A stretch of 34,543 nucleotides of DNA, taken from assembly GCA_024639825.1 (NCBI GenBank), contig JAHEGH010000023.1:7368-41910 (forward strand). Reading direction: 5' to 3'. The notes under the pieces were generated by a model. It was not told the origin of the DNA. It saw only the letters and a list, made by a program, of their open reading frames with translations, and searched no databases. The DNA comes from Gammaproteobacteria bacterium (GTDB lineage: Bacteria > Pseudomonadota > Gammaproteobacteria > Steroidobacterales > Woeseiaceae). Both the position numbers and the translations under genes were made by a program. This document shows, one piece after another, positions 75 through 32,983 of this stretch (the stretch's first letter is position 1; every line of letters starts with the position of its first letter).

Positions 75-116
75 TAGGTACCGGACACCCTATTAAAATA
101 GGGTGTCCGGTACCTA
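75..116. repeat. 42-bp near-perfect palindrome, copy 1 of a GGTACCGGACACC element
   Basis: Positions 75-94 are the exact reverse complement of 97-116, with only the two bases AA between them. The outer part of each arm contains the 13-mer GGTACCGGACACC or its complement; the inner part is CTATT/AATAG. The palindrome starts 4 bp beyond the metK stop codon and lies inside the metK-ahcY gap. The same 13-mer occurs three times in a larger palindrome at 31918-31988, so this is a dispersed repeat rather than a chance hairpin. It resembles REP-type or other small non-autonomous palindromic elements. In RNA it would form a 20-bp stem between the two cistrons; there is no clear T-run to make it a standard terminator. 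Confidence 0.9.
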
Positions 117-7150: not shown

Positions 7151-8587
7151 ATGCTGAGACGAACCAAGATTGTCGCTACGCTGGGACCAGCGTCGGAGCG
7201 ACCTAAAACCCTGCGCAAGATGATCGATTCTGGCCTCGACGTTGCGCGTCTGAATTTTTCACATGGCAGTGCTGATGAGCATCGGGAGCGTGCCAGGCGC
7301 CTGCGTGCGGCTGCACTGGATTGCGGCAGGGACGTTGGTCTGCTCGGAGACCTGCAGGGGCCCAAGATCCGGGTGATGCGGTTCAAGAAAGGCAGTGCGA
7401 CCCTCAAGTCGGGTGCCTCATTTTTCCTGGACAGTACTCTCGGCCTGAATGACGGGACAAAGAAAGGTGTGGGCGTCGCACTTGAGACCTTGCACGAGGA
7501 CGTCAAGGCTGGTGACACACTGCTACTGAATGACGGCCTGATATCTCTGCAGGTCGATAGTATTGACGGCACGCGTATTCATACAACCGTTGTGGATGGC
7601 GGAATTCTTTCCGACCACAAGGGAATCAACCTCAAGGGCGGTGGCTTATCGGCCCCCGCACTGACCGACGTCGATCGAGAAAACATCAAGCTTGCGGCTG
7701 AACTCGAAATTGATTTCCTGGCGGTTTCCTTTGTCCGCAACGGTGAAGACATCATGGAGGCGCGCAGGCTGTTTGAAGCAGCCGGTGGTAACGGGCAAAT
7801 CGTCGCGAAGATCGAGCGTACCGAGGCCGTTGAGAATATCGACTCAATCATCGCTGCCGCCGATGTGATCATGGTCGCGCGCGGCGACCTTGGCGTGGAA
7901 ATGGGCTATGCGGGCCTTACCGGTATCCAGAAGAAACTCATTCGCAAAACTCGCAAGGCACATAAGATTGTTATCACGGCGACACAAATGATGGAGTCGA
8001 TGATCGCTAACCCCATTCCGACACGTGCCGAAGTGTCGGATGTGGCTAACGCCGTTATCGATGGCACCGATGCCGTGATGTTGTCCGGTGAAACCGCAGT
8101 CGGCAATTACCCAAACAAGGCGATCATCGCGATGGCCGAGGTGTGTGTGGGTGCCGAGAAATTCAACGTTCCCTATTCGGTTACGGCTCGACGTAGCGAG
8201 GAGGAATTTGCACGCGTCGACGAAGCCATTGCGATGGCGGCAATGTATACCGCCAATCACCTGTCGGTGAAGGCGATTATCGCGTTGACGGAATCGGGCT
8301 CGACGCCACGCTGGATGTCTCGTGTGCGCTCCGATATTCCCATTTATGCGCTGACACCGCACGAGGCCACAAGTCGGCGCGTAACGATGTACCGCGGTGT
8401 ATACCCGATTAAGTTTGAGATTGACGCCAGTAATCCACGAAGCCTGTACCAGGACATATTTACCAAGCTGCTTGAAAACGATCATGTGACAGTTGGCGAC
8501 CTGGTGATATTCACGAAGGGTGATCTCGACGGTGTAACCGGCAGTACCAATGCATTGAAGATCCTCCCGGTCACCACAGCACCATGA
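7151..8587 (+). CDS. pyk: pyruvate kinase (PykA-like)
   Basis: This 478-residue enzyme converts phosphoenolpyruvate and ADP to pyruvate and ATP. It starts LRRTKIVATLGPAS, like E. coli PykA rather than PykF. Conserved parts include RLNFSHG (33-39), GDLQGPKIR, VARGDLGVE, and ITATQMMESMI followed by PTRAEVSDVANAV, which carry the substrate, potassium and magnesium contacts. The C-terminal domain is full length. A possible -10 (CAATAAT, about 7135-7141) lies so close to the ATG that the leader would be very short. The stop codon overlaps the start of the acylase gene by 4 bp (ATGA), so translation of the two is probably coupled. Confidence 0.97.
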   Translation: MLRRTKIVATLGPASERPKTLRKMIDSGLDVARLNFSHGSADEHRERARRLRAAALDCGRDVGLLGDLQGPKIRVMRFKKGSATLKSGASFFLDSTLGLNDGTKKGVGVALETLHEDVKAGDTLLLNDGLISLQVDSIDGTRIHTTVVDGGILSDHKGINLKGGGLSAPALTDVDRENIKLAAELEIDFLAVSFVRNGEDIMEARRLFEAAGGNGQIVAKIERTEAVENIDSIIAAADVIMVARGDLGVEMGYAGLTGIQKKLIRKTRKAHKIVITATQMMESMIANPIPTRAEVSDVANAVIDGTDAVMLSGETAVGNYPNKAIIAMAEVCVGAEKFNVPYSVTARRSEEEFARVDEAIAMAAMYTANHLSVKAIIALTESGSTPRWMSRVRSDIPIYALTPHEATSRRVTMYRGVYPIKFEIDASNPRSLYQDIFTKLLENDHVTVGDLVIFTKGDLDGVTGSTNALKILPVTTAP

Positions 8588-31453: not shown

Positions 31454-31516
31454 AAATCTGGCGGGGTTATGTTAGGTCCCGCGCAGCCTGCAATAACCGA
31501 TGGTAAGCTACGGCAA

Positions 31517-31915
31517 ATGACCAACCCCAGCCGCTCAAAACGTCCGTACTTGATTCGCGCCATGCACGAGTGGATGGATGACAATGGACACACGCCACAT
31601 ATCGTTGTCGACACCTCGTTCGACGGCGTTGCGGTGCCCAAGGAACACATCAAGGATGGCAAGATCATCCTGAATATAAGCGAGACCGCGGCGCACAATC
31701 TCAAGCTGACCAACGATGCGGTGAGCTTTCGTGCGCGCTTCGGTGGCGTGCCCTTCGACGTCTGGGCGCCGATTCGATCGGTGCTGGGTATTTACGCGCG
31801 CGAAACCGGGCAGGGCATGATCTTCTCGCACGACGCGGACCAATCCGAACCACCCGAGTTGCATCAGGAAATTGAAGAGACGCGCTCGCGTCCGCACCTG
31901 ACGATCGTCAAGTAA
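31517..31915 (+). CDS. sspB: ClpXP protease specificity factor SspB
   Basis: This 132-residue protein delivers ssrA-tagged proteins to ClpXP. The folded domain shows RPYLIRAMHEWMDDNGHTPHIVVDTSFDGVAVP and DAVSFRARFGGVPFDVWAPI; a flexible linker follows, and the last residues RPHLTIVK match the ClpX-binding tail of E. coli SspB. The linker is shorter than in E. coli. ATG 31517 is preferred over an in-frame ATG at 31469 by homology; the ribosome-binding site is weak. It ends 2 bp before a long palindrome. Confidence 0.94.
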   Translation: MTNPSRSKRPYLIRAMHEWMDDNGHTPHIVVDTSFDGVAVPKEHIKDGKIILNISETAAHNLKLTNDAVSFRARFGGVPFDVWAPIRSVLGIYARETGQGMIFSHDADQSEPPELHQEIEETRSRPHLTIVK

Positions 31916-31917
31916 TT

Positions 31918-31988
31918 GGTACCGGACACCTTATTTCGAGTCTAAAGGTGTCCGGTACCTTTAGACTCGAAATAAGGTGTCCGGTACC
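31918..31988. repeat. 71-bp nested palindrome with three copies of GGTACCGGACACC, copy 2
   Basis: The layout is A-X-A'-X'-A': A is GGTACCGGACACC (31918-31930), X is a 16-mer (31931-31946), A' is the complement of A (31947-31959 and 31976-31988), and X' (31960-31975) is the exact complement of X. The outer arms are therefore 29 bp each with no mismatch, and the loop is itself the 13-mer. The first A can pair with either A', giving a 13-bp hairpin or a 29-bp one. It fills the gap between the convergent sspB and diaA genes and shares its 13-mer with the palindrome at 75-116. It may act as a bidirectional terminator. Confidence 0.92.
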
Positions 31989-31995
31989 GTAGATT

Positions 31996-32983
<988 letters not shown>

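Follow-up and report, generated by a model that had tools for sequence, protein, structure and literature searches.

The palindrome at positions 31,918 to 31,988 of the window, the whole 34,543-nucleotide stretch of DNA analysed here, is probably a non-autonomous, REPIN/MITE-like miniature of a TIRtron-type transposase element, a reading to which we assign a probability of roughly 0.83 from sequence comparison. The proposed unit would be a hairpin with an AT-rich stem (roughly GGAAATAG...CTATTTCC) and a head of the form GGT-[7 nt]-ACC, and two or three such units in alternating orientation would make up one element, a single strand of which could fold either unit by unit or as one long hairpin. 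The gene for a 222-residue Y1/HUH transposase (RAYT) elsewhere in the genome carries the same units at both ends. Read in reverse, as A-X-A-X'-A', the window element equals the left end of this RAYT gene joined to its right end without the gene, which is why we take it to be a putative internally deleted copy of the RAYT element, or a copy of such a copy. The RAYT would have mobilised it in trans as folded single-stranded DNA, and it would then have inserted between the convergent sspB and SIS-domain genes. The feature adds a member with a nested variant layout to a kind of mobile palindrome that is already known.

The nested palindrome between sspB and a SIS-domain gene

The relevant features of the window are listed here, where A is the 13-nt core, X is the arm, and primes mark the reverse complements.

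77..114, unstranded: a second family member within the window, A-CTATTAAAATAG-A', adjoining the 3' end of metK (PF02773)
31469..31915, + strand: SspB gene (PF04386), whose stop codon ends 2 bases before the element
31918..31930, + strand: A, first 13-mer core GGTACCGGACACC, GGT/ACC around the 7-mer ACCGGAC (from the sequence and the copy search)
31931..31946, + strand: X arm TTATTTCGAGTCTAAA, a family module common to both transposase gene ends and to elements of other species
31947..31959, - strand: A' core in the centre, + strand sequence GGTGTCCGGTACC, which forms the long hairpin's tip with the 7-nt loop GTCCGGT
31960..31975, - strand: X' arm, the exact reverse complement of X
31976..31988, - strand: outer core A', partner of the first A
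31996..32613, - strand: SIS-domain gene (PF13580), which we take to be DiaA/GmhA-like, convergent with sspB, with its stop codon 7 bases after the element

The element reads GGTACCGGACACC-TTATTTCGAGTCTAAA-GGTGTCCGGTACC-TTTAGACTCGAAATAA-GGTGTCCGGTACC, and the A-X-A'-X'-A' pattern with perfect arms that a preliminary description of this DNA had proposed was confirmed by both the sequence and a repeat search. The perfect complementarity of the arms described there also holds, but their extent does not; instead of 29 bp around a 13-base loop, the arms (31918-31949 and 31957-31988) span 32 nt at 100% complementarity and leave a gap of 7 nt; GGT/ACC pairing closes the central A' on itself and so lengthens the palindrome by 3 bp. 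With up to two mismatches, the 13-mer occurs eight times in the window (five of them exact) against 0.53 expected, and none of 100 shuffles reaches eight. The 96-nt DNA fold has an energy of -39 kcal/mol compared to a shuffled mean of -8.95 (z = -14.9), and none of 200 shuffles folds as well.

The first A can pair with either the near or the far A', as had been pointed out, and one might picture a metastable RNA or DNA switch in which the near pairing would form first during synthesis. However, the two folds are not equal partners. The far fold has -37.7 kcal/mol versus -14.1 for the near fold as DNA and -58.4 versus -25.4 as RNA, so it is favoured by 24 (DNA) or 33 (RNA) kcal/mol. In addition, 20 of the 22 sites with paired exact cores in the genome hold exactly two, with an inexact third core at C130, indicating that a three-core switch is not a property of the family. 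With fold energies this unequal, we rejected a balanced switch, which we consider extremely improbable.

The 13-mer and RAYT searches covered a set of 60 genomes, namely the own genome (G000), 36 of its genus and 23 of its order (G-numbers are the compared genomes, C-numbers contigs of the own genome and L-numbers loci). For the site itself, the sspB query was matched in 35 of the 36 genus relatives, with sspB 72-84% alike, and 26 of the 29 relatives whose sspB loci were inspected could be read past the stop codon (two were not parsed and one was cut short). In none of these 26 does the A word occur, at up to two mismatches, in the ~200 nt after the sspB stop; the SIS gene is next to sspB in 17 of them, and the other nine have another or an unrecognised neighbour. 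A gain of the element in the own lineage, rather than its loss in the relatives, would be the simpler reading, and a recent insertion would fit the perfect arms. Neither a target duplication nor an exact junction can be defined at this distance from the relatives. Palindromic inserts of other kinds were observed after sspB, a GGGGTCAGAGCCC pair in G003 (L096) and a GACCAGGACACTGGTC pair in G027 (L083), while G036 (L081) has a single GGTACCAGGTACC there; the gap after sspB may thus attract palindromic elements.

The position between two stop codons, 2 and 7 bases off, would also suit an element that is kept as a bidirectional terminator or as an RNA-stabilising hairpin between convergent genes. 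By eye, some other family sites lie beside terminator-like stems (e.g. L010/L199 and L037/L225), and the family stands at the metK-ahcY site in three species. However, none of the three terminator-like matches that were found overlaps the element, there is no T-run at 31918-31988, and since all 26 readable relatives lack the word after sspB, it is dispensable there. We therefore regard this explanation as unlikely; an intrinsic terminator, defined by a GC-rich stem plus a T-run, was set aside, and the efficient bidirectional terminator suggested earlier is left unsupported.

A dispersed family and a transposase gene with the same ends

An exact search of the own genome for the 13-mer GGTACCGGACACC gave 51 matches, 25 and 26 by strand, while the reversed control gave 0. 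The preliminary description had held that absence of the 13-mer elsewhere in the genome would speak against its proposal, and this absence is clearly not the case. Forty-nine units were counted at 25 sites, with two of the 51 copies belonging to a scaffold duplicate of the metK-ahcY element. At 22 of the 25 sites, two or three exact cores stand in inverted order, and the sites on C33, C117 and C126 have one exact core each with inexact partners nearby. Allowing up to two mismatches gave 95 and 98 matches in the genome versus 67 and 63 for the control, indicating that most of the two-mismatch matches are due to chance. As the family is found in several separately assembled genomes, an assembly artefact of the family as a whole is unlikely.

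The metK-ahcY copy, whose downstream gene we take by eye to be ahcY, is present on both sides of a run of N, each time between the same flanks (C148:7223-7260 and 7444-7481, or L041 2024-2061 and 2245-2282). The second of these is the copy at 77-114 and the first lies just before the window; this doubling is probably a scaffold overlap artefact.

Spacers between cores in G000 are either short (12-21 nt) or 40-54 nt long, and the flank consensus of the 49 units is ...GAAATTA on one side and CTATTTCC... on the other. The outer six spacer letters pair within an element at 0.848, versus 0.653 when arms are exchanged between elements (0 of 2000 permutations, 23 elements), even though the first spacer pair already fails in 4 of the 23. 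Inner-arm pairing gave 0.846 versus 0.733 in G036 (0 of 2000 permutations, 27 elements) and 0.833 versus 0.761 in G006 (p=0.028, 10 elements), while G018, with one element only, is uninformative. The arms vary from copy to copy, yet they tend to remain complementary inside one copy. We also considered site-specific outer stems as a sign of templated copying, but the permutation results were weak and mixed (p of 0.064 in G000, 0.0035 in G006, 0.0195 in G018 and 0.080 in G036), and this idea was set aside.

The own genome contains two Y1 transposase matches. The first RAYT, of 222 aa, lies at C117:4395-5060 between a ParB gene and an EAL-domain gene. It scores above the Pfam cut-off for Y1_Tnp, the only Pfam domain listed for it at E 0.001, and just above the NCBIfam REP_Tyr_transpos cut-off (81.7 vs 80), and its sole PDB sequence match at E 0.01 is TnpArep 4er8. 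It contains the motifs NHVH and YVEMNP, and the NHxH and YxxxNP positions are invariant in 17 of 17 aligned relatives. The second RAYT is on C120 (L034 4567-5367), with the end GGGACAGTCACC and the end word GGGACAGTCACCTTTC, and its neighbourhood on one side is common to the RAYTs of G006, G017, G002, G028 and G015.

The C117 gene is enclosed by an exact 16-nt inverted pair. Its left end is CGTACCGGACACC-CTATATCCTGTCTAAA-GGTGCCGGACACC, that is, A-X-A, and its right end is CTTAGACTGGAAATAG-GGTGTCCGGTACC, that is, X'-A'. The ends of the window element match those of this gene-carrying copy as those of a MITE do, since the window X agrees with the RAYT ends in 12/16 letters on the left and 13/16 on the right, and the outer A in 12/13 and 13/13, respectively. 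Counting against a cognate link, both A copies at the left end carry one mismatch. The transposase substrate envisaged earlier is thus supported by association, through the Y1 RAYT gene of this genome whose ends consist of the 13-mer and the X arm.

The shared X module also bears on how the nested form arose. The preliminary description had invoked a recent inverted duplication or fold-back copying, by which template switching at one site, independent of the transposase, would have turned A-X-A' into A-X-A'-X'-A'. Perfect palindromes are known to arise by template switching, a 2026 paper reportedly deals with small inverted triplications, and the arms here are indeed perfect. However, the RAYT ends and elements of three species agree with X in 12 to 15 of 15-16 letters, and a scan of loci to L277 found the A-X-A-X'-A' layout again. 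It recurs with the same X module on C130 of the own genome; G018 has it at the site that corresponds to C130 and G036 at a different one, both with cores other than A. A local copying event is superfluous in the face of these recurrences; we consider it very unlikely and set it aside. The element most likely reached the sspB site already nested, as judged from the layouts at the other loci.

RAYT relatives were found at E 0.001 in 38 of the 60 genomes, the own genome included. For a study of the flanks, we took the best 80 out of 145 RAYT loci in genome records, whose titles name many phyla; 73 of them had at least 150 nt on both sides and could be used. In 25 of these 73 loci, the inverted flank pair scores above the 99% null. 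The motif G[GT]GACA[CG] flanks the gene on either side and points towards it in 47 loci; it has the opposite orientation in 8, and the reversed motif gives 0.

Words and sites among related genomes

Both flanks of the C117 RAYT match RAYT flanks in G030, G036 and G029, where the end words are GGTACCAGTTACC, GTGCCAGTCACC (GGTGCCAGTCACC) and GTGTCAGTCAC, respectively, so that syntenic transposase orthologues, as identified by their flanks, bear different words. The exact 13-mer GGTACCGGACACC occurs in the genus relatives G006 (30 copies), G029 (2), G036 (2) and G026 (1) and once each in 4 of the 23 order-level genomes, while G018 has 0 exact copies; conversely, GGTGTCAGTSACC has 0 exact copies in G000 and G006. 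The pattern GGTRVCAGTBACC, whose exact words were seen in full for G036 and G028 and partly for G015, has 51, 53, 52 and 71 matches in G002, G015, G028 and G036, respectively; the remaining 14 of the 18 genomes have 1-10. In other genomes, too, the amplified words are of the type that stands at the RAYT ends. This amplification varies, as only 7 exact copies of GGTACCAGTTACC are present in G030, where the RAYT ends with that word. In G006, there are 30 exact copies of A, yet its one RAYT match, in an assembly that is 92% complete in ~500 contigs, ends with another word, GGGACAGTGACC; copies can thus exist where no cognate gene is detected. We also noticed, in G006, an A element inside a palindrome with the arms GGGACAGTTTA/TAAACTGTCCC (L122 1503-1543, G006:C400), which resemble the end word of the G034 RAYT.

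We next considered a site as shared when flank matches ended at most 150 nt from the element in the right geometry. By this measure, 16 of the 25 own sites are occupied by an element in G006, G018, G029, G030 or G036 on both flanks and two more on one flank. At 16 of the 25, the word differs in at least one other species (14 of these on both flanks), and the remaining two shared sites (L014 and metK-ahcY) have the same word only. At metK-ahcY, G006 and G029 each carry a family member with the word of the own genome; the spacer is an alike 48 nt in these two genomes (L106/L124) and only 12 nt in the own genome.

Two accounts of these sites have to be weighed. In the first, a vertically inherited Y1 transposase and its scattered hairpins would change their 13-nt word together, with the hairpins rewritten in place on both arms, which we propose tentatively and at clearly less than even odds. 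The corresponding view that the word was rewritten at the gene ends and at inherited sites of fixed position (intergenic, and in one case intragenic), so that each species has its own word, is likewise possible rather than probable. In the second, each species' own repeats would repeatedly hit insertion hot spots at the shared sites, with no rewriting of the cores; this we place only just short of an even chance.

The comparison of all spacers is in line with hot spots. Thirty-four shared-site pairs were named for this test, and the 26 that were scoreable are no more alike in their spacers than 1802 other pairs (p=0.155, not significant), nor are the 20 pairs with different cores (p=0.196). 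In an earlier comparison with the spacer ends cut off, the unrelated, non-orthologous pairs L035/L227 (12.0) and L234/L260 (9.0) scored near the best orthologous pair with different cores, L036/L196 (10.0). Hot spots would also explain the other palindromes after sspB in G003, G027 and perhaps G036, as well as the second-kind G036 words that stand at G000 sites. G028, which belongs to the other RAYT lineage and for which 24 sites were examined, shares sites too; on both flanks, it has 1 in common with G000 and 2 each with G006 and G036.

On the other hand, several observations count against hot spots. The overlap with G000 is 1 of 24 sites for G028 but 11 of 49 for G036 (10 if both flanks are required), although the greater distance of G028 means that it is not a clean control. 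All three scoreable G000-G018 pairs have alike spacers, with null fractions of 0.001, 0.008 and 0.013 (the top 1.3%), and their spacers are nearly equal in length while the cores differ on both arms; in two of the pairs, part of the score stems from the family-wide X arm. Two G006-G018 pairs gave fractions of 0.029 and 0.302. At a site between genes that we take to be hslU-like and ubiE-like (Pfam gives an AAA domain), a 49-nt spacer is common to G000, G006 and G018, and the G018 cores are GGTGTCAGTGACG and GGTGACTGACACC.

A further case is inside a gene. Near its C-terminus, the MeaB gene (PF03308) has an in-frame unit at the same codon in G006 (L117 1506-1518), G036 (L228 2426-2438) and, in decayed form, G030 (L270), with three different words in the three genomes. 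The MeaB genes of G029, G008 and G017 have no unit and an unchanged length, and a MeaB search in the own genome gave no match. Since the test over all pairs is not significant, the in-place reading rests on the G000-G018 pairs and on this MeaB case.

We also observed GGTACCGGTTACC, a word intermediate between those of the two species, at locus L263 of G030 (C6:70677-70689), where the surrounding stretch aligns over its full length with the own C139:73219 locus (L038).

Relation to known systems and meaning

The TIRtron or TIRYT has been described as a RAYT-like Y1 gene between long terminal inverted repeats (TIRs); some genomes also contain scattered dimers and clusters in moderate abundance, and some but not all TIRs share the end motif GGGGWSAS, according to the accessible parts of Di Nocera et al. 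2013 (PMC3733652). As in the TIRtron, the Y1 RAYT gene here is flanked by long inverted repeats and accompanied by dispersed copies, and the G[GT]GACA[CG] motif on both sides of 47 of the 73 relatives agrees with the published ends. The own word GGTACCGGACACC does not fit GGGGWSAS, and the end GGGACAGTCACC of the second RAYT is nearer to it. The nested three-core element and the change of word per lineage are features of the present family that do not appear in the available part of the TIRtron description. The names TIRYT and TIRtron are scarce in the literature searched, though the transposase has relatives in the records of many phyla.

By the motif table of PMC6006769 alone, the own RAYT would belong to subclass 2.1, into which most TIRYTs fall and with which, in the portion of that paper at hand, no REP-like sequences were found. 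In contrast, repeats are present here both at the gene ends and in dispersed form. A C-terminal HTH-like domain is also a trait of this class, and in the own RAYT a weak one could lie below the Pfam threshold of E 0.001 at which Y1_Tnp is listed. The element resembles a REPIN or BIME, as far as these are covered by the consulted sections of PMC3116915 and PMC8049555, in its inverted doublet, variable spacer, long hairpin and dispersal (22/25 sites), and RAYTs of that system are given as single-copy and vertically inherited (PMC8049555). It differs from them, within the same sections, in the missing GTAG-type foot, in the three-core nested form and in the subclass 2.1 motifs of the transposase. 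A GT[AG]G or CGTC foot tag is not conserved over the 25 sites and 49 units, with GTAG after the outer core at one of the 25 sites (the window copy, 3' side), and we therefore excluded membership in the GTAG/CGTC REPs.

With IS200/IS605 and the E. coli-type TnpA-REP (4er8), the family has in common a Y1/HUH protein, as judged by sequence. For the C117 RAYT, however, no IS200 model was listed, the second RAYT is below the IS200 cut-off (25.8 vs 55), and the two Y1 genes of the own genome do not amount to a multicopy IS. A literature search for the GGTGTC string found no matching paper, and one for Woeseia transposase palindromes gave none on such an element among the matches listed. Searches that combined REPIN/RAYT with concerted evolution or gene conversion found no paper about in-place switching, and a related search gave none on REPs among the matches listed.

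The change of word has a precedent in the REP 'orthoswitch', in a paper whose first author is, we believe, Nunvar. In the available parts of that work (PMC3686654), syntenic RAYT orthologues of related strains are flanked by different repeat classes, and new variants are proposed to spread while the original copies stay and decay; of the switching itself, the authors write 'we can only speculate'. The present family is the same in having different repeats at syntenic RAYTs. The two differ in that old copies remain in the orthoswitch as described there, whereas here no exact matches to the old words are left and a few copies look as if they had been rewritten in place.

What stands out most is the lineage-specific word that is common to the transposase ends and to fixed sites. 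A partner repeat population with lineage-specific words is plain here for a subclass that was reported, in the accessible text of PMC6006769, without a REP-like partner. The way in which REP words switch, left to speculation in the part of PMC3686654 seen, thereby becomes testable. If the in-place reading is true, it would represent concerted evolution of a short single-strand code in trans, and the transposase would perhaps exchange or repair hairpin heads rather than only insert new copies.
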